Position numbers and translations under genes: made by a program
The notes under the pieces: generated by a model
Told to the model about the DNA's origin: nothing
The model's input: only the letters and a program-made list of their open reading frames with translations
The model's database searches: none
Part shown: positions 8,995 to 52,510 of the stretch, one piece after another
Layout: the number at the start of each line of letters is the position of its first letter
Position numbering within the stretch: position 1 is the first letter of the stretch
Assembly (NCBI GenBank): GCA_031270945.1
Contig: JAISWZ010000649.1
Location: forward strand, 1 to 64,000
Length of the DNA stretch: 64,000 bases
Reading direction: 5' to 3'
DNA from: Clostridiales bacterium
GTDB lineage: Bacteria > Bacillota > Clostridia > Lachnospirales > WQUN01

Positions 8995-9214
8995 AGCTGA
9001 TCTCTTAGCCGCAAACAGGGCAATCGGTCGCTAATGGCGAGCCCTTCGCCGTTACGCGCGTGTCCTAGCGGACAGCAGCAATCATCCCTATGAAAATCAG
9101 GATGCTAACGATTATTCAATCCTATTTCATACTGATCATTGGCATCTGTCACAATAATTAACAAGTCGCAGCGCATTGAGTTCCATGTTTAGTACATATA
9201 TCCTGTTTGCCATT

Positions 9215-9415
9215 AGAGCATATCCCAAAATTCCGCAAGTGGCGCAGGAAAAGTTATGCGATGCCTTAAGTGCATATCCCAAAATTAATTCCATGGCTTG
9301 AAAAATTCCGACGTTTAAGCATTCGCCAGGAATTTTTCGGCGCCTTGATGGAATTTTGGGATATGCACTAACGCGTTACTTTTCCAAGCCCTAAGATTAA
9401 TTTGGGGATATGCTC
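9215..9415. repeat. Nested pair of hairpin repeat elements
   Basis: Inner element 9270-9368 flanked by TAA (9267-9269, 9369-9371) interrupts an outer copy at 9215-9266 plus 9369-9415. Confidence 0.85.
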
Positions 9416-9474
9416 TCAAACCCCAGTCAATTCAATGCCTCCATGGAGCCTGCGGCTCCCTGGAGGCGCAAAAG

Positions 9475-9552: not shown

Positions 9553-11085
9553 TCACTCCCACTCTATCGTAGCAGGGGGCTTAGACGTAATGTCGTAAAC
9601 AACTCGGTTGACATTTGGCACTTCATTTACTATCCTGTTTGAAACGGTCTTAAGCACGCTGTGCGGGATCTCCGCCCAGTCAGCTGTCATGGCGTCAGTG
9701 CTTGCAACAGCCCTGAGGGCTATGGCATGGGCGTATGTGCGCTCATCCCCCATTACTCCAACTGACAAAAGATTCGGAATGACAGCGAAGTACTGCCAGA
9801 TGTCTCGATCCAGGCCAGCCTTTGCAATCTCCTCTCGGAAAATGAAGTCTGCCTTTCTCAAGATCTCAAGCTTCTCCTCGGTCACTTCCCCAAGGCATCT
9901 TACAGCTAGGCCAGGTCCAGGGAAGGGCTGGCGGTAAACCATTCTGTCAGGCATTCCCAACGCGACTCCAAGCCGTCTTACCTCGTCCTTGAATAGGCTT
10001 CTCAGCGGCTCTATTATCTCCTTGAAGTCAACAGCCTGAGGAAGCCCGCCTACGTTGTGATGGCTTTTTATTACAGCGGCGTTCTTGCTTCCGCTTTCTA
10101 TGACGTCTGGATAAATGGTGCCTTGAACCAGGTAGTCCACTTGGCCTATCTTTTTGCTTTCTTCTTCAAATACACGTATGAACTCTTCGCCTATGGCCTT
10201 TCTCTTCTTTTCAGGATCCGTGACTCCGGCAAGCTTTTGGAGGAACCTGTCAGACGCGTCCACTTTGACAAAGTTCATGTCATACTTTTTCTTGAAAAGC
10301 TCTTCAACCTCTTTCGCTTCATTTAGCCTAAGAAGCCCGTTGTCTACAAAAACGCAGATGAGATCCTTGCCTATAGCCCTATTTAGAAGCACTGCGGCAA
10401 CAGAAGAGTCAACTCCGCCAGACAGGGCGCAGAGCGCCTTTTTGCCTTCAAGCTTTTGCTTGAGCCCTGCGACAGCTTCAGCCGCGAAGTCTTCCATTCT
10501 CCAGTCAGCGCAGGCCTGGCAGATATTAAGGAAGTTTCTGAGAATGTCATCTCCCTGGGGGGTATGGACCACCTCAGGATGAAACTGCACTCCATAGAGC
10601 TTTTTTTCATTGTTTGATATGGCCGCTTTCTCGCATGACGGGGTTGAAGCGACAACCCTAAACCCGGGAGGCGTCTTGGATATCTGGTAAGTATGGCTCA
10701 TCCAACAAAGCCCTTCAGGATCGAGCCCCCAGAAGAGAGGATCCTCTAGCCTGAAGGCCACCCTAGCGCTTCCATATTCTCTGATATCCGAAGCTTCGAC
10801 TGAGCCTCCCAGCATATGCCCCATAAGCTGGCATCCGTAACATATGCCCAGTATCGGAACTCCAAGCTCAAAGACTTTTGGATCTGGCAACGGAGCGTCT
10901 TTGTCAGTCACTACCGCTGGCCCTCCGGTGAATATGATCCCTTTCGGATTCTTTTTTTTAATTTCTTCGATGGACGCGTCAAATGGAAGCATTTCGCTGT
11001 AAACGCTCAAATCGCGGATCCGTCGGACAATAAGTTGATTGTATTGGCCTCCAAAATCCATAACCAGTATAGTGTCGCGGTTCAT
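9553..11085 (-). CDS. guaA: GMP synthase (glutamine-hydrolysing)
   Basis: GATase [18 protein letters not shown]-PPase [13 protein letters not shown]-terminal [14 protein letters not shown]. Confidence 0.98.
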
Positions 11086-18500: not shown

Positions 18501-18779
18501 TATACTGACGAACGGTATGATTTAGAATTTTCTTATCGTTAGCGAGAGCGGCCCGACTGGGTTCTGAGGCGGGCAACGATAAGAAAATTCCACATTTGAG
18601 CGTTTGTCAGTATAGTTGAAGCAACCGCGCGGAATCAACGTTCGACTCCTCTATTTATGGGCGCAACGGAATTTGGGGATATGCTCTTAGAGCATATCCC
18701 CAAATTCCGTAATGGTGACGAATAGCGTTAGCCCAAGGGCAAATCAAGTCAATATTTTGAGAAGTGTGGTGCAGAACTT

Positions 18780-24804: not shown

Positions 24805-25353
24805 ATGCCAGACACAGATTTTGAAGCACCGGGGTTATCCTCCACTTCCTCTGCGCCTCCAAGAGTCCAAGAGATCTCATCCGAGATTTCCGGCTTTATA
24901 GCCAAAAACGGCTGGAAAAGAGTCGACAAAACCGAGTTTGAGGGAAGCGTAGGACTCAGGCTTTACTTGGACGTAAGAAACGTGCTCCTTGATGTCACTA
25001 TTATTGTAAACAACGATCCTTTGTATATCGCATTCTACGCACGTCTTCCCATGCGCTGCCAGCCTGAGTACGAACTCTTAGTCGATGATTACCTCTCAGA
25101 ATACAACTACGGTCAAAGCATTGGCTTTATGCAGCGCAATAAGCATGACGGCGCCTTGGAATACCAATTCTCATTTTCAGTCGCTCACTCATTTTTCATC
25201 GAAGACTTCGAATTGTACTTTAACGCCTGCCTCTACTCAGCAGCCATCGCTTATCCTGAGGTCTCTAAGCTTTGCGCAGGAAGGCTAACCCGAGCTCAAT
25301 TGGCTGAGGTAAAGATAAAACTGCAGGAGCTGACAAGAGCTCTGGATAATTAA
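24805..25353 (+). CDS. YbjN-like paralog 1
   Basis: CQPEYELLVDDYLSEYNYGQSIGFMQRNKHDGALEYQFSFSVAHSF; shared motif with five downstream ORFs. Confidence 0.8.
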   Translation: MPDTDFEAPGLSSTSSAPPRVQEISSEISGFIAKNGWKRVDKTEFEGSVGLRLYLDVRNVLLDVTIIVNNDPLYIAFYARLPMRCQPEYELLVDDYLSEYNYGQSIGFMQRNKHDGALEYQFSFSVAHSFFIEDFELYFNACLYSAAIAYPEVSKLCAGRLTRAQLAEVKIKLQELTRALDN

Positions 25354-25676
25354 GACATAAGCCAATTCGGGCCCTTACTAGCAATCGCGATCAGTCACGA
25401 GCAAACTTGCATGGCTTATCCGAGCCCCCGATTAATTTTGGGATATGCTTTATGAATCCCTAAGATTATATTTTGCAAGCGCACGAAATATGCAAATTTT
25501 ATATTCCGGGCAAGATTTTCAGCCTTGCCCATGATATGCTGACAATCTCTTAAATGTGTAAATTTCTTGTCGTTGCCTCAGCGCATATCCCAAAATTGAT
25601 TAAAGGCTTGGATATGCGCTTAGTACATAACCCAAATTTCCTGCAGTGGCAATGAGGCAAACAGGCAATACACTAA

Positions 25677-25776
25677 AAACATATCCCAAAATTTTATCCG
25701 AGGCGCCGGAAAAATCCGGCGTTGAAGCATTCGCCAGGATTTTTCCGGCGCCATTTCGGAATTTTGGGATATGCAC
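25677..25776. repeat. Hairpin repeat element, type I
   Basis: ACATATCCCAAAATT...AATTTTGGGATATGCAC flanked by TAA on both sides. Confidence 0.8.
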
Positions 25777-25854
25777 TAAGCCTTGCCCGTGCCTTGACAA
25801 TCAAGGCTTAGCTCTAAAACGCAAGACATCAAAAATAATATGGAGGATCTTTTT

Positions 25855-26397
25855 ATGTCAGAATCAGATTACCAAGACATTGCGCCCGAAACACTCAAAG
25901 CAAAAGTCCTGGGCATCGCGCTCGAAATCAGCAACCACTTTGAGTCGCACAACTGGACTAACATCAGCAGGAAAGAAACGCCTTACGGCTCCATCGTCTT
26001 CAGGTTCTACATGAATGTCAAGAAGGTGCCCCTCACGATCGACACCTTTGTAACCGAAGTTCCGTTGACTGTCAAAATCCTCGTGACCCTTCCTACGGTC
26101 TGCTCCCCTGAGTACAGCATCATAGTCGACAGCTACATCACCGAGTACAACTACGGGAAGAGATATGGCTCTTTGAATCACGACAAAAGAGACGGAGCTT
26201 TGGAGTACGAGTACAACTATTCAGTCGCTCACTCCTTTAACGCTGATGACTTTGACACCTACTTCAACGCCTGCGTCTTCTCGGCAGCCAACGCTTACCC
26301 TGAAATCTCGAAGCTTTGCGTAGGAAGGCTCAGCAAAGCGAAACTTGATGATGTCAATAACAAAGTCGCAACGCTGGTAAACGCTCTCGATGATTAA
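25855..26397 (+). CDS. YbjN-like paralog 2
   Basis: CSPEYSIIVDSYITEYNYGKRYGSLNHDKRDGALEYEYNYSVAHSF; GGAGG RBS. Confidence 0.85.
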   Translation: MSESDYQDIAPETLKAKVLGIALEISNHFESHNWTNISRKETPYGSIVFRFYMNVKKVPLTIDTFVTEVPLTVKILVTLPTVCSPEYSIIVDSYITEYNYGKRYGSLNHDKRDGALEYEYNYSVAHSFNADDFDTYFNACVFSAANAYPEISKLCVGRLSKAKLDDVNNKVATLVNALDD

Positions 26398-26544
26398 ACT
26401 CTGACGCGGCTATCCGCGCAAGCATGCAGGCGTTCTTGGATCGAGCGAAAACATTCGTAAAATTTAAGTCAAGTTTTCGCTCGCGAGATTTTAACTCACT
26501 TAAGAAATCTCAATTCTATTCACTCACTGATATAGGAGGTGCTT

Positions 26545-27087
26545 ATGTCAGACGTAAATTTCGATGGACTGCCCAAAATAAAAGAAACTCCCAAAGCAAG
26601 AGTCCAAGCGATCTCATACGCAATCAACCAGTACCTGTCAGAAATGCACTTGACCAGCATCGTCAGAACAAAGTTCGATGACGGAACCGTCTTAATCAGT
26701 GCCAGCATTCACGCCTCTGACATGTCTCTGCAAGTCGACACATATGTAGCGGAAAATCCTTTGTCCATCAGGATCACTGTGCTCCTTCCTGTAACATGCT
26801 TTCCCCAGTACAGTCTCTTGGTCGATGAGTACATCACCAACTTCAACTACAACAAGAGGTTCGGCGTTTTGAAGCGCCTCGACAGGGCTGTGGAATACGA
26901 GCATACATTCTGCGGCACCCGCACTTTCAGCATTTACGACTACGGCTTGTACCTGATCGCCTGCCTGTACTCAGCCACCGAAGCTTCCCCTGAGCTCGCG
27001 AAGATTTGCGTAGGTAAGTTCTCCAAAGCAAAGATAGCTGAGAGCTTTGATAAAATCTCCACTCTGATAAACGCTCTTAATGATTGA
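26545..27087 (+). CDS. YbjN-like paralog 3
   Basis: CFPQYSLLVDEYITNFNYNKRFGVLKRLDRAVEYEHTF; AGGAGG RBS. Confidence 0.83.
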   Translation: MSDVNFDGLPKIKETPKARVQAISYAINQYLSEMHLTSIVRTKFDDGTVLISASIHASDMSLQVDTYVAENPLSIRITVLLPVTCFPQYSLLVDEYITNFNYNKRFGVLKRLDRAVEYEHTFCGTRTFSIYDYGLYLIACLYSATEASPELAKICVGKFSKAKIAESFDKISTLINALND

Positions 27088-27146
27088 AAAGCTTTAAGCT
27101 CCACAATAAAGTTTTATTCCAGCAATCAAGGCTTATTCGGAACTAA

Positions 27147-27308
27147 GAGCATATCCCAAAATTATATCCGAGGCACCGGAAAAATCCGGATGTTTGCTCG
27201 CAAAATCCCGAGCAAACTAGTTGAAGCATTCGCCAGGATTTTGGCGATTTGCCCGTGAACATTGGGCAAACGCTATCCGGTGCCATTTCGGAATTTTGGG
27301 ATATGCAC
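27147..27308. repeat. Hairpin repeat element, type I with two inserted hairpin modules
   Basis: TAA-flanked; contains TTTGCTCG...CGAGCAAA and GATTTGCCC...GGGCAAAC. Confidence 0.85.
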
Positions 27309-27398
27309 TAAAACCTCAAGCCAGAGCAAACGTAGCCAAACCGCTCTCCGCTCTAGCATAATCGCTTTCAATGAGCAAAATCCCGCAAGCAACGCTTA

Positions 27399-27497
27399 GT
27401 GCATATCCCAAAATTCATACAGTGGCGCAGCAAAAGTCATCGCGATGCTTTAACGCGTGACTTTTGCAAGCCATAAAATTAATTTTGGGATATGCAC
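27399..27497. repeat. Hairpin repeat element, type II
   Basis: GTGCATATCCCAAAATT...AATTTTGGGATATGCAC flanked by TTA on both sides. Confidence 0.85.
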
Positions 27498-27501
27498 TTA
27501 A

Positions 27502-27622
27502 GAGCGTATCCCAAAATTTTACTTCTTGGAAAATCCCGCGTCTGCTCGCAGAAGACCTAGCAAACCAGTTGAAGCCCTCGCAGGATTTTTCCAGAGGCCT
27601 AAAGGGATACTGGGATATGCGC
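27502..27622. repeat. Diverged hairpin repeat element
   Basis: GAGCGTATCCCAAAATTTTAC...CTGGGATATGCGC. Confidence 0.7.
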
Positions 27623-27630
27623 CAAGCTAA

Positions 27631-27749
27631 GAGCATATCCCAAAATTAATTCCAGGGCTTGAAAATTTCCCTCGCAGAAGCCCGAGCAAACTAGTTAAAG
27701 CATTCGCCAAGAATTTTTCGGTGCCTTAACGGAATTTTGGGATATGCAC
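27631..27749. repeat. Hairpin repeat element
   Basis: GAGCATATCCCAAAATTAATT...AATTTTGGGATATGCAC flanked by TAA. Confidence 0.85.
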
Positions 27750-27794
27750 TAAGCAATCAAAAGTTTAACAAATTTAGCATAGGAGGATCTTTGC

Positions 27795-28337
27795 ATGTCA
27801 GAATCAAATGCCCTTGAGATCTACAGCGAAACGCCCAAGGACAGAGTCCAGGCAATCGCAGCCGAGATCGGCAAGTACTTCGATGACAACGGCTGGACTA
27901 CTGTCACCAGGAAAGAGTGCGCAAACGGCGCCATAGCCTTCTACTTCAACATGAGCGTCAAGAGCGTCCCCCTCAGGATCGACGTCGATATAGCTGAGAG
28001 CCCCATGGTCGTCAGGTTCAACGTGACCCTTCCAACGCTCTGCGCGTCCGAGTACGCCCTCTTGGTCGATGAGTTCATAACGGAGTTCAACTACGATCAG
28101 AGATACGGCGCCTTGAAGCACGACATCAACGATGGCACCCTGGCGTACGAGTACAACGTCTCAGTTGCCCATACCTTCGATATCGATGACTTCGACACTT
28201 ACTTCAACGTCTGCCTCTACTCGGCCGCCAACGCCTACTGGGATGTCTCAAGGCTTTGCGTAGGAAGGCTCTCAAAAGCGAAACTGGCTGAGCTCACTGA
28301 GAAGCTCACCGAAATGACGCAGACTCTCAACGAGTAG
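27795..28337 (+). CDS. YbjN-like paralog 4
   Basis: CASEYALLVDEFITEFNYDQRYGALKHDINDGTLAYEYNVSVAHTF; AGGAGG RBS. Confidence 0.85.
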   Translation: MSESNALEIYSETPKDRVQAIAAEIGKYFDDNGWTTVTRKECANGAIAFYFNMSVKSVPLRIDVDIAESPMVVRFNVTLPTLCASEYALLVDEFITEFNYDQRYGALKHDINDGTLAYEYNVSVAHTFDIDDFDTYFNVCLYSAANAYWDVSRLCVGRLSKAKLAELTEKLTEMTQTLNE

Positions 28338-28349
28338 CGTCTGCAATAA

Positions 28350-28472
28350 AGCATATCCCAAAATTAAATTATGGCGCGGCAAAAGCCACGCGTTACAGCA
28401 TATCATGCCTTTTGGCGATTTGCCCTTGGGCAAACGCTACCCCGCGCCTTATATGGATTTTGGGATATGCTC
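28350..28472. repeat. Hairpin repeat element, type II with inserted module
   Basis: AGCATATCCCAAAATTAAATTATGGCGCGG...GATTTTGGGATATGCTC, TAA on both sides. Confidence 0.85.
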
Positions 28473-28732
28473 TAAGCCACCGTCCTAAGCGATTATCGCC
28501 ATATCGTTTGGAAAGGGCGAGCCCGCACGGCCTTGCCCTTTCCGATTTCGAATAAAAATTGGATTTTTCATGATTTTCTAGTCCTTAAATATAGTGATTT
28601 TAAATTTTTGATCTATACTTTTCGTTTCAAATTTGATATAATGTTATAGACATAATTCAACTCAGCGCTTTGACGCTAACGCTAACGCTTAAGCATCATC
28701 AGCGCCAATACATAAAACAGGAGGATCTTATC

Positions 28733-29245
28733 ATGGCTATCAACGATACCTACACAAGGTTTCAGGCAATCGCGCGAGCGGTCAATGACTACATGGTCGG
28801 GAATGGCTGGAGAAGCGTTTCCAGATCCGAGCGCTCCAACGGCAGCATCAACTTCGAGCTCACCATGAACGTGGAGAAAATGGCGTTCAGAACCTCTATC
28901 TTTGTCGGGAGAGACCCACTGTACATCAGGTACACAGTGACCCTTCCCATCGTCTGCTCCCCCGAGTACAGCCTCATAGTTGACGATTACATCGCTACGT
29001 ACAACTACAACCTTCGCATCGGCTCCTTGAAGCACGACTCCTCAGACGGAGCCCTGGAGTTCGAGTTCGCCTACGCGACCGACAACGTGTTCAACATCAG
29101 TGACTTCGATTCCTACTTTGACATTTGCCTTCTCTCAGCGGCAAAAGTTTACCCCGATATCTCAAAGCTTTGCGTAGGCAGAATGTCCCAGTCACAGATG
29201 AACGCGATCATGGAAAAGCTCACTCTCTTGAGCAGCGCCCTCTAG
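28733..29245 (+). CDS. YbjN-like paralog 5
   Basis: CSPEYSLIVDDYIATYNYNLRIGSLKHDSSDGALEFEFAYAT; start 28733 with AGGAGG (ORF track 28670). Confidence 0.83.
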   Translation: MAINDTYTRFQAIARAVNDYMVGNGWRSVSRSERSNGSINFELTMNVEKMAFRTSIFVGRDPLYIRYTVTLPIVCSPEYSLIVDDYIATYNYNLRIGSLKHDSSDGALEFEFAYATDNVFNISDFDSYFDICLLSAAKVYPDISKLCVGRMSQSQMNAIMEKLTLLSSAL

Positions 29246-29695
29246 AACCAGGCTTTGTACCAAGCTTTTCAATGCTAATCGCAAGAGTTTTGGATTTTAA
29301 GATTGCAAACGCCGCTACGCCTGCCCAATCCGGCGACTCCCATCATGAGCGAAAAGAAGCCCTCTTTTCGCTCATGAGTTAGGCCAGTGCTCTTTAGCGA
29401 TTCTCATTTAAGAAATTTTAGACATAATCACAAACCAAGCTTAAGCATACATAGTTTCACAATATTAATCCTATAGGCGCTAACTTTTGCATTTTTATCC
29501 TTTTTTAAGCATTAACCCTATCTGAAATCTAGCTCTTTTTATTTTTAATGTTTGGCCATTCAAAAAACCCCTAGTATTTCCGTCTTTTCGCCACAGATAT
29601 CTGAGCCAGTTTTTAAATTTACAGCAAAAAGTGCGGCGTTATCCTAAAATCACCATACCATAGCAAACGCATATTTATATAGCATAGAGCGTTAA

Positions 29696-29793
29696 GGGCA
29701 TATCCCAAAATTAATCTTAGGGCTTGCGAAAGTCACGCGTTAAAGCAGCGCTTTGACTTTCGCTGCGCCACTTCGGAATTTTGTGATATGCAC
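29696..29793. repeat. Hairpin repeat element, type II
   Basis: GGGCATATCCCAAAATTAATC...GGAATTTTGTGATATGCAC, TAA on both sides. Confidence 0.85.
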
Positions 29794-29905
29794 TAAGGCA
29801 TATCCCAATCGGCTAGGCTTGGGCGCGCCACGCGCATTGATATAGCCGATTATCCAGGATATGCTGCTTTTGAGTGAAAAGAGCCGCACTTTTCTCTCTG
29901 AATAG

Positions 29906-30067
29906 GAGCATATCCCAAAATTATATCCGAGGCACCAGAAAAATCCGGGTTTTTGCTCGCAGAAGCCCGAGCAAACTAGTTGAACCATTCGCCAGGATTT
30001 TGGCGATTTGCCCGTGAACATTGGGCAAACGCTATCCGGCGCCATTTCGGAATTTTGGGATATGCGC
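29906..30067. repeat. Hairpin repeat element, type I with two inserted modules
   Basis: GAGCATATCCCAAAATTATATCCGAGGCACC...AATTTTGGGATATGCGC. Confidence 0.85.
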
Positions 30068-30157
30068 TATGTACCCGCGAGCGAAAAAGCGCTTGCCAGC
30101 TGCCTTTATCTGACGGCGCCGCTCGTCAGCATAACCAGTTTGGCTTGCAAGGAGGAT

Positions 30158-30784
30158 ATGATGACTGACCTTGAATTTGATCACCTCTGGGAGGAGATTA
30201 CCGGCGGCGCCAGCAACGCGCAAGAGCCCCAAGAGCTGGACGAAGAAGAGACAGCGCCCAGCCAAAGCGAAGCCGAGGGGCCTTTTCACCCAGAAGAAGT
30301 AGCTGAGGTTGAAGGGGCGCTGGACAGCTACCTGATCGAGAACGACTGGCCCGCAGTTTCCAAGACCCATTGCCCCGATGGGAACATCTACTACAACGTA
30401 TACATGAACATCAGCAACGTTTCATTGCACACAGCCCTGCTCATTTCCGACAAGTCTTTGTCTCTCCAGATCATTGTGACGCTTCCAACCGTCTGCTCTC
30501 CGCAGTACTGGCTGATCTTGGACGATTTCATTGTGAACTTCAACTACAGCAGACGCTTTGGCGGCTTGAGGCGCAGCCAGGGAACAGTTGACTACGTTTA
30601 CTCATTTTCAGTTTCAGGCGGATTCAACGAGGAGCATTTCCAGCGCTACCTGGCAGTTTGCATCTTCTCCGCTGTCGAAGCTTACCCCGAAATCGCCAAG
30701 CTGAGCGTAGGAAAGCTGTCCCGCAAGAAATCGGAGGAACTAGTAGAAAAGCTTCGCGTTCTGGTGGAGGCGCTGAAAGAGTAG
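30158..30784 (+). CDS. YbjN-like paralog 6 with acidic N-terminal extension
   Basis: CSPQYWLILDDFIVNFNYSRRFGGLRRSQGTVDYVYSF; true start near 30158/30161 after AAGGAGG; ORF track start lies in a repeat element. Confidence 0.83.
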   Translation: MMTDLEFDHLWEEITGGASNAQEPQELDEEETAPSQSEAEGPFHPEEVAEVEGALDSYLIENDWPAVSKTHCPDGNIYYNVYMNISNVSLHTALLISDKSLSLQIIVTLPTVCSPQYWLILDDFIVNFNYSRRFGGLRRSQGTVDYVYSFSVSGGFNEEHFQRYLAVCIFSAVEAYPEIAKLSVGKLSRKKSEELVEKLRVLVEALKE

Positions 30785-42846: not shown

Positions 42847-44283
42847 ATGACACCTGGGGTTTTTCAGACTGGAGACGACTTGCTTCGGTTGATAGATTCA
42901 ATCACAGTCAAAAACGGGAGCAAGTTGAAGTGCTACGACTTTGTCGAGTCGATTGTTGGATTCTGCAACAGTGATGATCAGGACGGAAAGATAGGCATTG
43001 TTTTCGGGTTGCCGTTAACCGGCAAAACAGTCGGGATGGTGCAAGCAGTCGAGCTTTTGCTGCAGCAAGGGCATAGAGTTGCGTATGTAAGCTTAAAATT
43101 CAGCGAACTCGAAGCAGTCGACGATGTAAGCGCAGAATTAATAGAACTCCTTGATTCGGGATACACTCACTTTTTTGTTGACGAGGCGCCCTATTTGCAG
43201 AAGCTTTTAACTGAGTCCGCCAGGTTGGCCGATGCGTTTCCCGTGAAAATAGTTGCGACTGGGCCAGACACCTTTAAGCTTTGGTATGCTTTAAATTTAG
43301 CGTTGCCCGATTATAGCGTAGGCTTTTCGACACACTGCCGCTCTTTCCTCGAAAGCAAGCGAGTGATTGGCAAGGGCTATGGTGAATACAAAGCTCATAG
43401 CGGATTGTTTATCGAAGGCCAAAGCGCTTTAGGCTACCTCAAGAGCGCCATTGCTGACAATTTGATTTATTCTTTGCAAGAAGGCGAGGATGGCTCCTCT
43501 GAAGACAGCAAAACGGACTACGTTGGAGAAAAACAGTCCTTTTATGAAGCAACTGCTGTGCTACTTCATTCCGTGTCAGAAGTTATGCTGCGAAAGAAGT
43601 TCCTGCAATTAACAGGCTTAACCTCAGAGACTTCACATAAGGGAGACTACAAGGCTGAATATATTGCGGAGAATCCAAAAAGCCCTATTGAAGGCTTCAT
43701 GTCCTTTTTCATCAAAGTGGGGTGCTTGCTGGAAATCGGCATCGGCACTTCCGATTTTGATTTGCAGCCATCATGGTGTTTTGCTCACCCAGCTCTTTTG
43801 AGTTATGAAGTTAACGATTCGATGGAGTCAATAGCTAGGTATGAGGGCGTTGACGCGAGGGTTATCGCAAAGGATGTTTCTAAAGCGGCATATTGGGCAA
43901 TAAATGAAAACATAGTTTTATGCCACTTTCTTTGGTTTGCGGACAAGGATGAGCAGATATTCATATATCGCGACAAAGAAGACAGGGATATCGATATCGT
44001 ATCAATCAACCGAAAGCTTGAGAAGTTGCGCCTAGTTGAGGTCACGGGCAAATCCAAAGACGAAGTCCAACGAAGCGCAAAGGTTCTTTTCTCCAAGGCG
44101 ATCTTGAAGAACATTGGCGTAAGCGACAGCTTCTCCATAACCCGAATCATTGCGTACAACGGGGAAAACAAATGCATTGAACACGCTAAGGGAGAGCTGT
44201 TTTTGCTTAAGGTTGAGGATCTTTTGTGCAGGATAAAAGATCTGGACGCTTTTCTAAGCGAAATTCGAAGCCCGTATTTTTAG
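42847..44283 (+). CDS. AAA ATPase, DUF4143-like architecture, array member 1
   Basis: Walker A GLPLTGKT, YTHFFVDEAPYL, C-terminal RDIDIVSINRKLEKLRLVEVTGKS. Confidence 0.85.
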   Translation: MTPGVFQTGDDLLRLIDSITVKNGSKLKCYDFVESIVGFCNSDDQDGKIGIVFGLPLTGKTVGMVQAVELLLQQGHRVAYVSLKFSELEAVDDVSAELIELLDSGYTHFFVDEAPYLQKLLTESARLADAFPVKIVATGPDTFKLWYALNLALPDYSVGFSTHCRSFLESKRVIGKGYGEYKAHSGLFIEGQSALGYLKSAIADNLIYSLQEGEDGSSEDSKTDYVGEKQSFYEATAVLLHSVSEVMLRKKFLQLTGLTSETSHKGDYKAEYIAENPKSPIEGFMSFFIKVGCLLEIGIGTSDFDLQPSWCFAHPALLSYEVNDSMESIARYEGVDARVIAKDVSKAAYWAINENIVLCHFLWFADKDEQIFIYRDKEDRDIDIVSINRKLEKLRLVEVTGKSKDEVQRSAKVLFSKAILKNIGVSDSFSITRIIAYNGENKCIEHAKGELFLLKVEDLLCRIKDLDAFLSEIRSPYF

Positions 44284-44340
44284 GCTATTAAACACTTAAA
44301 GCTTCTGTTGCGCTGATTTGGCTGTTTTTTCAGAGAGGTA

Positions 44341-45897
44341 ATGATTATGGCGCCTTATATCTTTCAAACTGGAGACGACTTGCTGCAGTTGATCGGTTCT
44401 CTTACTAATGAGAGCAAGTTTCAGCGGCGCGACTTTGTGGCGCCGCTTATAGGATTCTGCACTGACAATAATTTTAACGCAAAGATTGGCGTCATTTTCG
44501 GATTGCGCTCAACCGGCAAAACAGTCGGGATGCTGCAAGCCGCAGAGTTCTTGATGCAGCAAGGAAAGAAAGTTGGGTACGCAAGGTTCAATTACCAGGA
44601 ACATAGCATGGATATCGTAAATTCTGAAATAGCAGCTCTCGCCAAAGCGGGATACACCCACTTGTTCATTGACGAAGCTCCCTATTTGAAACATTTTTTG
44701 AATCATTCCGCAGAATGGCCCGATCTGTTTGTTCCTCTTTATCGGCTGAAAATCATCATTACTGGCACAGACAGCTTCTTGCTATGGTTTGCCCTGCATA
44801 GAGCGTTGTATCACAGATATGAGTGCTTTTTGACAAACCGCAACACATTTCCTGAAAGCAAGCGATTGCTTGGCCAGAGCTATGACGAATACAAGGCTCA
44901 AGGCGGTTTGTTTCTTGCAGAAGGCGATACGGTTTCAGAGCTTCTTGCTAAAGATGCGCATATTGAAAATTTCATCCGCGATGCCATTATTGAGAGCCTG
45001 ATTCATACTCTGGAGCAAATAAAAAATGACTTTGCCACTGCCGGCTATTACTTGGATTGGATTTCTCGTGTTGATAAACGCGTCATTTCCAAATACATTT
45101 TTGAGTTGCTTGAATCAACAGCCGAAGCAATGATAAAGAAGCGCTTTGTTAAAAACGCAAGCGAGCAAGGCGATTCATGGCTTAATGATATAATCAGCGA
45201 TTGGTCTGCTCATGCGAAAAGCGGGGACAGGGACAGGGTTGTTGATCAGATACAGATTTATCTAAATCTTTTCCACAATGATAATCCTAAGGAGTCCATT
45301 AACGCTTTGCTGGAATTCCTCATTAACATAGGGGTATTGATAGAAGGCGGCTCATCCTTTTCGGACCTTTCCAAAATGCAATCAAGACTGTGTTTTGCTC
45401 ATCCCGCTATTATGAGCTATGCGCTTGATAAAGCAAAGAACTCGATTATTCAAGCAGTTAACATCTCTGACGCTTCCGCATTTTCGAGAAGTCTAGCCGA
45501 GGCTTCAGAATGTGCGCTAAACGAGAACATAGTTTATTGCCACTTCATTAGATTTTCGGACGATGGTGACAAAACATTCCTGTATCACGACAAAAAGGGC
45601 AGGGAAATCGATATCGCATCTGTCAACCGAAAGCTGAACAGGTTGCGTTTGGTTGAGGTTGAAAGCAAATCTGAGATCGATGACAGCACGGTCTTCGAAA
45701 ATGAGGCCAAGGCTCTTTACGATAAAGAGATCCTCAAAAGCATTGGCATGGACGAGAAATTTTCTATTACCCGAATCATTGCTTACAAGGGCGAAAACAA
45801 GCGTGTTTCTAATGATAGCGGTGATCTGCTTTTGCTTAACATTGAGGATCTTTTGCGCAGGATAAAAAACTTGGACGTTTTTATCGAAGAAATTTGA
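44341..45897 (+). CDS. AAA ATPase, array member 2
   Basis: FQTGDDLLQLI, GLRSTGKTVGML, THLFIDEAPYL, REIDIASVNRKLNRLRLVEVESKSE. Confidence 0.87.
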   Translation: MIMAPYIFQTGDDLLQLIGSLTNESKFQRRDFVAPLIGFCTDNNFNAKIGVIFGLRSTGKTVGMLQAAEFLMQQGKKVGYARFNYQEHSMDIVNSEIAALAKAGYTHLFIDEAPYLKHFLNHSAEWPDLFVPLYRLKIIITGTDSFLLWFALHRALYHRYECFLTNRNTFPESKRLLGQSYDEYKAQGGLFLAEGDTVSELLAKDAHIENFIRDAIIESLIHTLEQIKNDFATAGYYLDWISRVDKRVISKYIFELLESTAEAMIKKRFVKNASEQGDSWLNDIISDWSAHAKSGDRDRVVDQIQIYLNLFHNDNPKESINALLEFLINIGVLIEGGSSFSDLSKMQSRLCFAHPAIMSYALDKAKNSIIQAVNISDASAFSRSLAEASECALNENIVYCHFIRFSDDGDKTFLYHDKKGREIDIASVNRKLNRLRLVEVESKSEIDDSTVFENEAKALYDKEILKSIGMDEKFSITRIIAYKGENKRVSNDSGDLLLLNIEDLLRRIKNLDVFIEEI

Positions 45898-45999
45898 GGC
45901 TTATTTTTGAGTATGCTGATTTGGCTATTGCTTTGTGTGCGCGCGCTGAGCCCGCCTTAGAAGCCCGTCGGTTCCTCCCGCTATCGATAATAAAATAAT

Positions 46000-46091
46000 G
46001 ATTCTGCAGTAAGAACTCCCTAAAGGCCATGAAATCAAAGCTTTGATAAAAGGCCATCATTCAGACAAACCCTGTAATTAAGCCGTTTGAA
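46000..46091 (-). pseudogene. Decayed coding remnant shared with 20007-20104
   Basis: Antisense reads NGLITGFV*MMAFYQSFDFMAFREFLLQNHY. Confidence 0.5.
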
Positions 46092-46136
46092 TTCTCTTGG
46101 TCGAAATTATAAGTCATCTAAAAGAGGTCACGCATT

Positions 46137-47687
46137 ATGGCACCTTCCATTTTTCAAACCGGAGACGATTTGCTGCAGTTGATCGCTTCACTTACTAATG
46201 AGAGCAAGTTCAAGCGCCGCGACTTTGTAGAGCCGCTTATAGGATTCTGCACTAATAATGCATTCAACTCAAAGCTTGGCATCATTTTCGGTTTGCGTTC
46301 AACCGGCAAAACTGTCGGGATGCTGCAAGCCGCCGAGTATTTGCTACAGCAAGGAAATAAAGTTGGGTATGCAAGGTTCAATTACCAAGAATCCAGAATG
46401 AGTGACGCTAAAGCGGAAATAGAAGCTCTCGGGACGTCAGGGTACACTCACTTGTTCATAGACGAAGCCCCTTATTTGGAAGGATTTATGAATCGCTGTG
46501 CAGAATGGTCCGACTTGCTTGTTCCCATTTACCGGCTGAAAATTATCATTACTGGTACAGACAGCTTCTTGCTATGGTTTGCCATGCATAGAGGGCTGTA
46601 TCACAGATATGAGTGCTTTTTGACAAACCGCAACACCTTTTCTGAAAGCAAGCGATTGCTTGGCCAGAGCTATGACGAATACAAGGCTCATGGCGGATTG
46701 CTTCTTGCAGAAGGCGCTACGGTTTCAGAGCTTCCTCTTGATAAAGATGCGCATATAGAAAATTTCATCCATGATGCCATTGTTGACAACCTGATTCATT
46801 CTCTGGAGCAATGCAAAGAGGACTATGCCACTGGTAGCCATTACTTGAATCGGCTCTATACTATTGATAAACCCGTCATTTTCAAATGTGTTATCGCGTT
46901 GCTTGAATCAACAGCCGAATTAATGATAAAGAAGAACTTAATTGCAAGCGAGCAAAGCGATTCAGGACTTGGTGAAATAATCAGCGAATGGTCTGCTCAT
47001 GAGACAAGTGATGACATTAAAGACAGAATTGTTGATCAGATAGAAATATTTCAAAAACTTATAAAACTTGATAATCCTAAAGATTCCATTATTGTTTTGC
47101 TAGAATTCCTCACTAACATAGGGTTATTTATCGAAACTGGTTCATCCTTTTCAGACCTTTCCAGAATGCAAATAACGCTGTGCTTTGCTCATCCCGCTCT
47201 TTTGAGCTATGCGCTTGATCAAGCAAAGAACGCGATCATTCAAGCAGTTAGCGTCTCTGACGCTTCTGCTTTTTCAAAAAGTCTCGCCGAGGCTTCAGAA
47301 GAAGCGCTAAACGAGAATATAGTTAATTCCCATTTCATTCGATTATCGGACTATGATGACAATATATTCTTCTATCACGATGATAAGGGTAGAGAAATCG
47401 ATGTTGTGTCAGTCAACCGAAGGCTGAACAGGGTGCGTTTGGTTGAAGTTGAAAGCAAATCCAAGATCGATGACAGAATGGTTTTTAAAAACGAGGCTAA
47501 AGATCTTTATGTTAAAGAGATCCTCAAATACATTGGTGTAAACAAGAGCTTCTCCATAACCCGAATCATTGCATACAAGGGCGAAAACAAGCGCATTGCC
47601 AATGTTAAAGGCGATCTGTTTTTGCTTAACATCGAAGATCTATTGTGCAGGTTAAAAGACTTGGACGCTTTTATTGAGGAAATTTAG
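46137..47687 (+). CDS. AAA ATPase, array member 3
   Basis: Near-identical N- and C-terminal blocks to member 2. Confidence 0.87.
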   Translation: MAPSIFQTGDDLLQLIASLTNESKFKRRDFVEPLIGFCTNNAFNSKLGIIFGLRSTGKTVGMLQAAEYLLQQGNKVGYARFNYQESRMSDAKAEIEALGTSGYTHLFIDEAPYLEGFMNRCAEWSDLLVPIYRLKIIITGTDSFLLWFAMHRGLYHRYECFLTNRNTFSESKRLLGQSYDEYKAHGGLLLAEGATVSELPLDKDAHIENFIHDAIVDNLIHSLEQCKEDYATGSHYLNRLYTIDKPVIFKCVIALLESTAELMIKKNLIASEQSDSGLGEIISEWSAHETSDDIKDRIVDQIEIFQKLIKLDNPKDSIIVLLEFLTNIGLFIETGSSFSDLSRMQITLCFAHPALLSYALDQAKNAIIQAVSVSDASAFSKSLAEASEEALNENIVNSHFIRLSDYDDNIFFYHDDKGREIDVVSVNRRLNRVRLVEVESKSKIDDRMVFKNEAKDLYVKEILKYIGVNKSFSITRIIAYKGENKRIANVKGDLFLLNIEDLLCRLKDLDAFIEEI

Positions 47688-47763
47688 AGCCTTATTTTGA
47701 GATTTCTTCACTCTAAAGGTTCTTTGCGTTGATTTGGCTGTTTCATCTGAGAGGTCATGGATT

Positions 47764-49311
47764 ATGATGCCTTCCATTTTTCAAACCGAAGACGACTTGC
47801 TGCAGTTGATCGCTTCACTTACTAATGAGAGCAAGTTCAAGCACCGCGACTTTGTCGAGTCGCTTATAGGATTCTGCACAAATAACGCATTCAACGCAAA
47901 GCTAGGCGTCATTTTCGGTTTGCGCTCAACCGGCAAAACAGTCGGAATGCTACAAGCCGCAGAGTTCTTGCTTCGACAAGGAAATAAAGTCGCTTTCGCA
48001 AGGTTCAATAGACATGATCAAGGAATGGGCAACGCAAACCGAGAAATATTGACTCTCGCCAAAGCGGGATACAGTCACTTTTTCATTGACAACGCTCCTT
48101 ATTTGGAAGGATTTATGAATAGCTGCACTGAATGGTCCGACCTGTTTGCTCCTCAGCACCGCTTGAAAATAATCATTACTGGATCTGACAGCTTCTCGCT
48201 TTGGAGTCTCATGCATGGAGAGTTGTGTGACAGATATGTTTGCTTTTTGACAAACAGCAACACACTTTCTGAATGCAAGAGATTGCTTGGCAAGGGCTAT
48301 GATGAGTGCAAAGCTGATGGCGGATTGTTTCTTGAGGGTTATGCTCCCATTTCAGAGCTTTCTCTTGACTCTACGGATGCAAATATAGAGAATTTCATAG
48401 AATGCGCCGTTGTTTACAACCTGACTCATTCACTGAAACTTTGCACTGAGGACTACACCAGCACCGGCAACTATTACACAGATTGGCTTTACGCTATAGA
48501 CAAACCTATCGTTTACAAAAGCGTTTTATACTTGCTTGAACAGGCAGCCGTAGCCATGATAAAGAAGAATCTTATGCGCAATTCAAGCGAGCAATGCTTT
48601 TCGAATTTAGCCGAAACCATTGACAAGTGGTCTTCTCTTGAAAAAAGCCGGATTACCTCTGAATTTTTTAGAAATCTATTTGAAATCAAATATCCTGAAA
48701 ATACTGTAGGCGTTTTGCTAGTATTCCTCATAAAAATAGGATTGCTGATAGAAAGCGGTTCCTTTGAAGTTATTTCCAATAAATTACATTATACAAAAAT
48801 GCTGCAAACAGTGCACTTTGCTCATCCCGCTCTTTTGAGCTATGCGCTTGACCAAGCAAATAAATCTCTCATGTCCATAAGAGACATTGACACAGAGCTT
48901 CTTTCAAGAAGCATCGCCATGGCATCAGAAAGGGCGCTAAATGAGAACATTGTTTATTGCCATTTCATTCGGTTAGCGGACAAAAGCGACAAGATATTCC
49001 CTTATCACGATATGCAAGATAGAGTAATCGATGTTGTGTCAGTCAACCGAAGGCTGAACAGGTTGCGTTTGGTAGAGGTTGAAAACAAATCCGAGATTGA
49101 CGACAGCATGGTCTTTGAAAACGAGGCCAAGGCTCTTTACGATAAAGAGATCCTCAAAATCATTGGCGTGGACGAGAAATTTTCTATTACCCGAATCATT
49201 GCATACAAGGGCGAAAACAAGCGCATGTCTAATGATGACGGTGATCTGTTTTTGCTTAACATTGAGTATCTTTTGCACAGAATCAAAGATTTGGAAAAGC
49301 CTAATTTCTAA
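47764..49311 (+). CDS. AAA ATPase, array member 4
   Basis: MPSIFQTEDDLLQLI...GLRSTGKTVGML...SHFFIDNAPYL...VIDVVSVNRRLNRLRLVEVENKSE; start 47764 after GAGAGG. Confidence 0.86.
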   Translation: MMPSIFQTEDDLLQLIASLTNESKFKHRDFVESLIGFCTNNAFNAKLGVIFGLRSTGKTVGMLQAAEFLLRQGNKVAFARFNRHDQGMGNANREILTLAKAGYSHFFIDNAPYLEGFMNSCTEWSDLFAPQHRLKIIITGSDSFSLWSLMHGELCDRYVCFLTNSNTLSECKRLLGKGYDECKADGGLFLEGYAPISELSLDSTDANIENFIECAVVYNLTHSLKLCTEDYTSTGNYYTDWLYAIDKPIVYKSVLYLLEQAAVAMIKKNLMRNSSEQCFSNLAETIDKWSSLEKSRITSEFFRNLFEIKYPENTVGVLLVFLIKIGLLIESGSFEVISNKLHYTKMLQTVHFAHPALLSYALDQANKSLMSIRDIDTELLSRSIAMASERALNENIVYCHFIRLADKSDKIFPYHDMQDRVIDVVSVNRRLNRLRLVEVENKSEIDDSMVFENEAKALYDKEILKIIGVDEKFSITRIIAYKGENKRMSNDDGDLFLLNIEYLLHRIKDLEKPNF

Positions 49312-49373
49312 TTACGCTGAATTGGTTATTGCTTTGCTTACGAGCGCTCAATTCCCGAAAGAGGTCACGCATT

Positions 49374-50924
49374 ATGACATCATCCATTTTTCTAACTGGA
49401 GACGACTTGCTGAAGTTGACAGAAACACTCACTGCCAAAAAAGGAACCAAGTTCAAGCGCCGCGACTTTGTCGAGCCGCTTATAGAATTCTGCGCTAATA
49501 ATGAATTCGACGCAAAGCTAGGCGTCATTTTCGGTTTGCGCTCAACCGGCAAGACAGTCGGAATGTTGCAAGCCGCCGAATTTTTGTTGCAACAAGGAAA
49601 GAAAGTTGCTTACGCGTGTTTCAATTACCAAGAACAAAGATTGGATATCGTAAATTCAGAAATATTAGCTCTCGCCAAATCGGGATACACTCACTTTTTT
49701 ATTGACGAGGCTCCCTATTTGAGAGGATTTCTGAACCATTCAGTTGAATGGGCAGACTTGTCTGATCCTATTCACCGGTTGAAAATTATCATTACCGGAA
49801 CGGACAGCTTCTTGCTTTGGTTTGCTATGGAAGAAGGGTTGAAATACAGATATGTTTGCTTTTTGTCTAACAGCAGCACCTTCCCTGAATACAAGCGATT
49901 GCTTGGAAAAGGCTATGATGAATACAAGGTTCATGGCGGGGTGTTTCTTCCGGAATATGCTGCGGTTTCAGCGCTCTCGCCTGGCAATAAAAATGTGCGT
50001 ATTGAAAATTTCATAGAAGGCGCCGTTGTTTACAACATGATGCATTCACTGGAAATTTACAAAGAAGACTACACATCGGACAGGTATTTCTTGAATTGGC
50101 TTTCTTTTATAGATAAACCTGTCATTTTCAAAGGCATTATTCACTTGCTTGAACAGATAGCCGGGGCTATGATAAAGAATAGCCTTATTCACCATTCCAT
50201 CGAACCAATCTCTACAAATTCGGTCAAAGCCATTGAACATTGGTCTGCTCTTGAAAAAATCGAGATTAAAGCTAAATTTGCTGAAAACTTTCTAGAAATC
50301 GATTATCCTGATTTCACTCTAGACGTTATGCTTTTATTTCTCATCAACATAGGATTGCTCATAAAAAGCGGATCATCTTTTTCAGACCTTACTAAAATGC
50401 AAGAAACATTATACTTTGCTCATCCCGCTGTTATGAGCTATGTGCTTGACCAAGCAAAGAGATCTCTCTGGTCCATAAGCGGCTTTGACACAGGAAATTT
50501 GTCAAGCAGTCTCCCCGATGCATCAGAAAGGGCCCTAAATGCGAACATAGTTTATTGTCACTTTCTTAGATTTTCTGAAGATAGTGACAAGATATTCCTG
50601 TATCACGACCAAAATGATAGAGAGATCGATGTTGTATCAGTCAACCGAAGGCTGAACTGGTTGCGTTTGGTTGAGGTTGAAAGCAAATCTGAGTTCGATG
50701 ACAGCATGGTCTTTGATAATGAGGCTAAAGATCTTTACGATAAAGAGATCCTCAAAAACATTGGCGTGGACGAGAAATTCTCAATCATCCGAATTATTGC
50801 ATATAACGGCGAAAACAAGTGCATTGCCAATATCAAAGGAGATCTGATTTTGCTTAACATTGAAGATCTTTTGTGCAGGATAAAAGATTTGGACGCTTTT
50901 ATCGGAGAAATTAGCGCAACTTAA
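49374..50924 (+). CDS. AAA ATPase, array member 5
   Basis: MTSSIFLTGDDLLKLTET...GLRSTGKTVGML...THFFIDEAPYL...REIDVVSVNRRLNWLRLVEVESKSE; start 49374 after GAAAGAGG. Confidence 0.87.
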   Translation: MTSSIFLTGDDLLKLTETLTAKKGTKFKRRDFVEPLIEFCANNEFDAKLGVIFGLRSTGKTVGMLQAAEFLLQQGKKVAYACFNYQEQRLDIVNSEILALAKSGYTHFFIDEAPYLRGFLNHSVEWADLSDPIHRLKIIITGTDSFLLWFAMEEGLKYRYVCFLSNSSTFPEYKRLLGKGYDEYKVHGGVFLPEYAAVSALSPGNKNVRIENFIEGAVVYNMMHSLEIYKEDYTSDRYFLNWLSFIDKPVIFKGIIHLLEQIAGAMIKNSLIHHSIEPISTNSVKAIEHWSALEKIEIKAKFAENFLEIDYPDFTLDVMLLFLINIGLLIKSGSSFSDLTKMQETLYFAHPAVMSYVLDQAKRSLWSISGFDTGNLSSSLPDASERALNANIVYCHFLRFSEDSDKIFLYHDQNDREIDVVSVNRRLNWLRLVEVESKSEFDDSMVFDNEAKDLYDKEILKNIGVDEKFSIIRIIAYNGENKCIANIKGDLILLNIEDLLCRIKDLDAFIGEISAT

Positions 50925-50968
50925 TTTTGCTGAGCCTGTATTATTTTTTCGAAAGAGGCTATATAATT

Positions 50969-52510
50969 ATGACTCCTGTTTTTCAAACCGAATACCAATT
51001 GTTGCAATTGATAGATTCAAATACTATTCAAGACGGAATCAAGTTAGAGCGCCGCGACTTTGTCGAGTCGCTTATTGAATTCTGCACTAATAATGAATTT
51101 GACGCAAAGTTAGGTGTCATTTACGGATTGCGCTTAACCGGCAAAACAGTCGGTATGCTGCAAGCCGCCGAGTTTTTGCTGCAGCAAGAAAATAAAGTTG
51201 CATACACAATGATCAATTACCAGGAATCAGATATAAGAGATGTAAATTCAGAAATGCTAACTCTCGCAAAATCGGGTTATACTCACTTTTTCATTGATGA
51301 AGCTCCATATTTGGAAGGATTTTTGAATAATTCTGCTGAATGGGCCAACCTGTTTGTCCCTTTGCACCACTTGAAAATAATCATCACTGGTACAGACAAC
51401 TTATTGCTATGGTTTTCCATGCATAGAGCATTGCTTGACCAATTTGTCTGCTTTTCGACAAACCGCAATACTTTCCCTGAATACAGGCGATTGACTGGTA
51501 AAGGCTATAATGATTACAAAATCAAGGGCGGAGTGTTTTTTAGCCATGCTTATAATTCAGAGTTTATTCCCGTTACAATAGATCCATATATGGAAAACTT
51601 CATATATGATGCCGTTGTTGAGAATCTGATTCATACACTGGAACATTGCAAAGATGATGATTCTACTGGCAACTATTACTCGTATATGCTTCAAGACATT
51701 GACAAAGTTGACATTTTCAAAGACATTATTTTAGTGATTGAATTTGCAGCTTTAACAATAGCAAGGAATAACTTTATTAAAGATTCAAAAATAATTCCAA
51801 GACTAGAAAATAATAAATATGACATTAAAACCCAAATTGTTGATCAGATAGAAATTTATCAAAATTCAAAAAAAATAAAGCATTCTGAAGATTCTAGAAA
51901 GCGTTATTACGCTTTCATTTCATTTCTCATCGAAATAGGGTTGTTGATCGAAAGCGAATCAGCCAGTTCAGACCTCGCCAAACCGAAATCAACATTGTAC
52001 TTTGATCATCCCACACTTTTGAACTATGAACTTCATCTAACAAAATATGCCATGTATAAAGTTAAAGATATTTACAAAGATGCTTTTGCAAAAAATTTCT
52101 ATCAGGTGACTGATGGAGCGCTAAATGAGGCTATAGTTTATTGCCACTTCATTCTATTATCCGACGAAGAAGACAAAATATTCTTGTACCAAGATAATAA
52201 ACAAAGAGAAATCGATGTTGTATCTATCAATCGTCGGCTGAATAGGTTGCGCCTAATTGAGGTCAAAATCAACACCATAATCGTCAGCAATGTTTTTACA
52301 GATGAGGCAAAGGACCTTTACGATGATGAGATCCTCAAAAACATATGTATATCAGAAAATTTTACTATAACCCGAATCATAGCATACAGTGGCAGCAACA
52401 GGCGCGTGGCTAATGAAAAAGGTGATCTTTATTTGCTTGACATTGAGGATCTCTTGTGCAGGATCAAAGATTTGGACGATTTTATCGGTGAAATTTCGAT
52501 TTGTCCTTGA
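50969..52510 (+). CDS. AAA ATPase, array member 6
   Basis: MTPVFQTEYQLLQLIDS...YGLRLTGKTVGML...THFFIDEAPYL...REIDVVSINRRLNRLRLIEVKINT; start 50969 after GAAAGAGG. Confidence 0.87.
   Translation: MTPVFQTEYQLLQLIDSNTIQDGIKLERRDFVESLIEFCTNNEFDAKLGVIYGLRLTGKTVGMLQAAEFLLQQENKVAYTMINYQESDIRDVNSEMLTLAKSGYTHFFIDEAPYLEGFLNNSAEWANLFVPLHHLKIIITGTDNLLLWFSMHRALLDQFVCFSTNRNTFPEYRRLTGKGYNDYKIKGGVFFSHAYNSEFIPVTIDPYMENFIYDAVVENLIHTLEHCKDDDSTGNYYSYMLQDIDKVDIFKDIILVIEFAALTIARNNFIKDSKIIPRLENNKYDIKTQIVDQIEIYQNSKKIKHSEDSRKRYYAFISFLIEIGLLIESESASSDLAKPKSTLYFDHPTLLNYELHLTKYAMYKVKDIYKDAFAKNFYQVTDGALNEAIVYCHFILLSDEEDKIFLYQDNKQREIDVVSINRRLNRLRLIEVKINTIIVSNVFTDEAKDLYDDEILKNICISENFTITRIIAYSGSNRRVANEKGDLYLLDIEDLLCRIKDLDDFIGEISICP

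Follow-up and report, generated by a model that had tools for sequence, protein, structure and literature searches.

Positions 9213-9418 of the 64,000-nucleotide stretch analysed here (the window) hold two hairpin elements, one inside the other, on the 3' side of guaA (GMP synthase; 9553-11085, minus strand; Pfam GATase and GMP_synt_C). How did this arrangement arise, and what does it tell about the family to which the elements belong? The outer MITE is preceded by TTA (9213-9215), which we assign to its target-site duplication, and its interrupted left arm (9216-9269, plus strand) runs from GAGCATATCCCAAAATT to the loop, the last three bases of the arm (9267-9269) being the left copy of a TAA duplication whose original target lay in the outer loop CCTTAACG. 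A complete MITE of 99 nt follows (9270-9368, plus strand), with the termini GTGCATATCCCAAAATT and AATTTTGGGATATGCAC, and folds into an imperfect hairpin. After the right copy of TAA (9369-9371), the right arm of the outer MITE (9372-9415, plus strand) ends in a terminal repeat with one mismatch and is flanked by TCA (9416-9418), one mismatch away from the expected TTA. The first-pass annotation gave the coordinates of the nest, the TAA pair, the outer arms and an intact family member used for comparison (27399-27497, plus strand, flanks TTA/TTA) exactly as we find them; the overall span that it named, 9215-9415, is right in content and starts one base early, at the final A of the outer flank TTA. 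Both the inner element (z = -7.6) and the intact copy at 27399-27497 (z = -9.4) form hairpins that are much stronger than those of shuffled sequences.

The reading of the outer arms as one split element was examined by a join test, in which the insert and d bases of its right flank were removed and the remainder was aligned to a library of intact elements from the same genome. The scores for d from 0 to 7 were 127, 129, 135, 137, 133, 125, 122 and 118 bits, with the peak at d = 3, where the rejoined outer element measures 98 nt and shares 90.8% of its bases with an intact copy from another part of the genome, with 0 gaps; a separate rejoining scan against intact elements gave E 4e-35, and the resemblance is not due to chance. 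The earlier proposal that removal of the insert and one TAA restores the outer element is thus borne out by a gapless join that scores best at exactly 3 bases, and an outer allele without the insert would read ...GCGATGCCTTAACGCG... The inner element has perfect terminal repeats and a perfect TAA/TAA duplication, while the outer one is more worn (flanks TTA/TCA and the right-repeat mismatch), which fits the inner MITE being the younger of the two.

The two elements belong to a family with the terminal inverted repeat GWGCATATCCCAAAATT, the target C/T-TWA-A/G and a 3-bp TWA duplication. A Hamming scan for GCATATCCCAAAATT with at most 3 mismatches, covering 1.66 Mb (19%) of the window's own genome, found 970 ends, 434 of them exact, compared with 0, 0, 0 and 32 at 0 to 3 mismatches in the reversed control. 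These ends form 295 inward pairs, mostly spaced by 94-96 nt between GCATATCC cores, so that the elements are mostly 98-100 nt long when the outer GW/WC is included, with GWGCATATCCCAAAATT at both ends; size classes, termini included, lie near 99, 129 and 162 nt. The flanking 3-mers are identical in 164 of the 295 pairs (TAA or TTA in 145; 1-11 in shifted-register controls) and the duplication is imperfect in about 44%. At each duplicated base the flanks match in 76-78% of cases, versus 15% at the next base out, and their consensus is C/T-T-W-A. Over the whole 8.8 Mb MAG (725 contigs, 76% complete), 2905 ends match a 20-base pattern of end plus target at a tolerance of 3 mismatches (reversed control 0), corresponding to about 1,450 elements. 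Short, without coding capacity, bounded by terminal repeats and target-site duplications, dispersed and present in high copy number, the GWGCATATCCCAAAATT family is a non-autonomous MITE family; it is new and apparently undescribed, though of a known kind, and what sets it apart is its abundance rather than its mechanism.

The MITEs lie mostly between genes: the midpoint falls inside an ORF in only 30 of 186 elements although ORFs cover 75% of the sequence (this count, like the covariation and private-change counts given below, uses an earlier, cleaner subset biased to copies with intact ends). In the window, an array of diverged paralogous genes of ~180 aa (24805-30784; no Pfam match for the two tested) has many hairpin elements between the genes, among them two variants of 158 nt (27149-27306 and 29908-30065). 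A second group of at least six tandem paralogous genes of ~520 aa, 60-84% identical over long stretches, occupies 42847-52510; the one tested matches an AAA_14 ATPase.

Nesting is ordinary in the source genome. In 12 of the 295 elements the flanks rejoin into another element, a frequency that is expected because MITEs fill about 3% of all bases and avoid ORFs. The first-pass annotation called the nest direct evidence of transposition-like insertion; insertion is the best reading, given the gapless join and the TWA duplication found in most of the 295 independent elements, and the word direct holds for a past insertion, not for present activity of the family or for anything special about the site. 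We also considered self-targeting of the loop: of the 12 nested insertions, 5 are no more than 6% away from the centre, but the loop holds one of three recurrent target motifs, and the idea was rejected. Uninterrupted copies of the outer type are common elsewhere in the genome at the paralogous level, contrary to the refuting case that the annotation had named, in which no empty outer copy exists. Pairs of abutting elements that share exactly one TWA tell the same target: 11 occur in 1.66 Mb, at a spacing of 7, versus a background of 0.11 per spacing, as follows if insertion into Y-TWA-R leaves the edges Y-TWA-G and C-TWA-R and hence two new targets each time. Two MITEs standing end to end with a single common TTA are found in the window at 18660-18745 (GGGGATATGCTC-TTA-GAGCATATCCCC; about 18675-18700).

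The only same-genus relative (7.7 Mb, 91% complete) yields 2 end matches, both at the mismatch limit, and no MITE next to its guaA; a comparison of the guaA locus, as the annotation had suggested, is therefore uninformative, since the relative lacks the whole family. Elements with both ends were absent from 37 other genomes of the family-level lineage, from 398 sampled genomes of the phylum and from IMG/VR viral contigs, and plasmid and phage records yielded no similar DNA. By these sequence comparisons the expansion looks lineage-specific. The neighbouring guaA is 71% identical to the same-genus copy and 64-67% to those of Clostridia, but within the family the best matches from two further genera reach only 38-41%, a third genus gives 63% along a C-terminal fragment, and relatives there have a distant guaA or none; its horizontal replacement is possible.

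We propose with high confidence that the nest was formed by insertion of one MITE into another, the family being mobile, inserting at C/T-TWA-A/G with duplication of TWA, and presumably being moved in trans by an IS5-type transposase. Structure, duplication, target consensus, abundance and the nested and abutting copies are direct observations, while the transposase type, the mobilisation in trans and the sequence of events are inferred. A DDE transposase of this type (the bacterial relatives of PIF/Harbinger), supplied in trans, would bind both terminal repeats, excise the hairpin and ligate it into cuts staggered about TWA, after which repair would leave the 3-bp TWA duplication. The inner copy would have landed in the TTAA of the outer loop, a sequence that agrees with the target. 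The type of transposase is suggested by the palindromic target C/T-TWA-A/G, of which 3 bp are duplicated, together with the GAG/GTG ends, features typical of IS5-type and PIF/Harbinger transposition.

The search for the helper gave an element of the proposed class. No transposase stands beside GWGCATATCCCAAAATT ends in a full-length element in the 1.66 Mb, and where two ends with matching duplications stand 0.6-2.6 kb from each other, the DNA between them consists of ordinary host genes or other elements and includes no recognised transposase. Genome-wide profiles PF01609, PF13586 and NF033580 detected one intact IS5-type transposase only, and PF13359 (DDE_Tnp_4) detected no protein. The intact IS5-family element (contig C166, L044:1094-2485; NF033580, E 1e-58, 266 aa) has the ends GAGCCTGTTTAAAATCT, of the GAGC...GCTC type, and a TTA duplication; its terminal repeat differs from the GWGCATATCCCAAAATT of the MITEs, for which reason it was rejected as their autonomous partner. 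Two internally deleted derivatives carry the same end as this element (on C363, L232, and C213, L231), one of them starting at a TTA that adjoins a member of the MITE family. These derivatives represent MITE formation at an early stage within this very genome, and the resident element exemplifies the kind of machinery and the path that leads to MITEs, not the actual helper. An IS1634-like gene on C295 was rejected as a partner, with one family end upstream and none downstream. The helper may have been lost, may lie in the unassembled part of the 76% complete MAG, or may have escaped recognition.

The MITEs fold strongly (z from -7.6 to -11.9 in the tested elements), and their stems have a history of their own. 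Across 110 distinct copies, 98.5% of the inner-stem positions form Watson-Crick pairs, compared with 90.0% after the arms had been exchanged among copies, and as many as four Watson-Crick types are seen at a given pair. Per site, changes that are found in one copy only occur at 1.7% in the stem, 2.2% in the loop and 1.7-3.0% in the side segments, and 45 of the 51 private stem changes are uncompensated (the 0.8% found in the terminal repeats carries no reading, the copies having been chosen for intact ends). Resident copies thus decay freely; it is in the spreading lineages, from subfamily to subfamily, that pairing persists or is restored. Either hairpin-dependent mobility or a template-switching inverted-repeat correction in the source copies would explain the pairing. 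That the hairpin itself, beyond the terminal repeats, is needed for mobility is suggested by inner stems that were repeatedly rebuilt by paired changes while resident copies are unconstrained, and we regard it as unlikely, if worth keeping in mind; if true, the substrate of transposition would be an extruded cruciform or a single-stranded hairpin, unlike ordinary IS5-type transposition.

The same strong folds and covarying stems might instead mean that the hairpins are selected by the host as terminators, RNA stabilisers or protein-binding sites, the nest being incidental. The uncompensated decay of resident copies, with recent stem changes about as frequent as loop changes, argues against a host function, as do the gaps between convergent genes, which hold 26 of 136 elements versus 18% of intergenic bases and thus no enrichment, the Rfam covariance models, none of which matched above the gathering score in the window, and the absence of the family from the same-genus relative. 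We judge such a function very improbable. Hardly better is the prospect that the nest is a composite of two elements, produced by their recombination, by template switching from one to the other or through misassembled repeats, as might happen in a MAG of 725 contigs with many near-identical 100-bp repeats, where several contigs end near such elements and some elements mix left and right segments; recombination, however, predicts neither a complete inner element with an exact 3-base duplication nor an outer element that is gapless on both sides, and the insertion signature recurs at many sites. Membership among the REP/BIME-type palindromes moved by the single-strand mechanism of RAYT (IS200/IS605-like), which are likewise short, intergenic, imperfectly palindromic and numerous, can practically be dismissed, because the MITEs have well-defined terminal repeats and clear 3-bp TWA duplications, whereas REPs to our knowledge have neither a target duplication nor a terminal-repeat boundary and the RAYT mechanism, as far as we know, leaves no target duplication.

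Insertion of a mobile MITE, then, makes the nest a clean record, built into the genome, of transposition in the past, which fixes the duplication length and the target of the family. For a prokaryote, these MITEs reach an exceptional abundance; they are unusual also in their covarying stems and apparently confined to one lineage. They lend themselves to the questions of how MITE bursts come about without a visible helper and why the inner stem covaries from one subfamily to another and not within resident copies.

Among known systems, the IS5 family (IS427/IS1031-like, NF033580) and the MITEs derived from it resemble the present family in the GAG...CTC-type ends, the 3-bp T-W-A duplication and the occurrence of internally deleted derivatives, and the T-N-A type of duplication expected of IS5-derived MITEs is found here, TAA and TTA dominating. 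The differences are the resident GAGCCTGTTTAAAATCT versus the family's GWGCATATCCCAAAATT, and that no transposase is seen inside the MITE family. PIF/Harbinger elements duplicate TWA, and NuwaII targets C|TNA|G (PMC4482050). The site preference of these elements (PHIS) and of Tourist-like MITEs is that of the family studied here; they are, however, eukaryotic elements in separate clades, whereas the present host is a prokaryote with no DDE_Tnp_4 (PF13359). ERIC, Correia, Chunjie and QMITE elements are likewise short, non-coding and intergenic and have terminal repeats, but are unrelated in sequence. The highest ERIC count in a review is the 711 copies of Photorhabdus luminescens (PMC10969869), and the copy number of the present family, with 2905 ends or about 1,450 elements, is larger.
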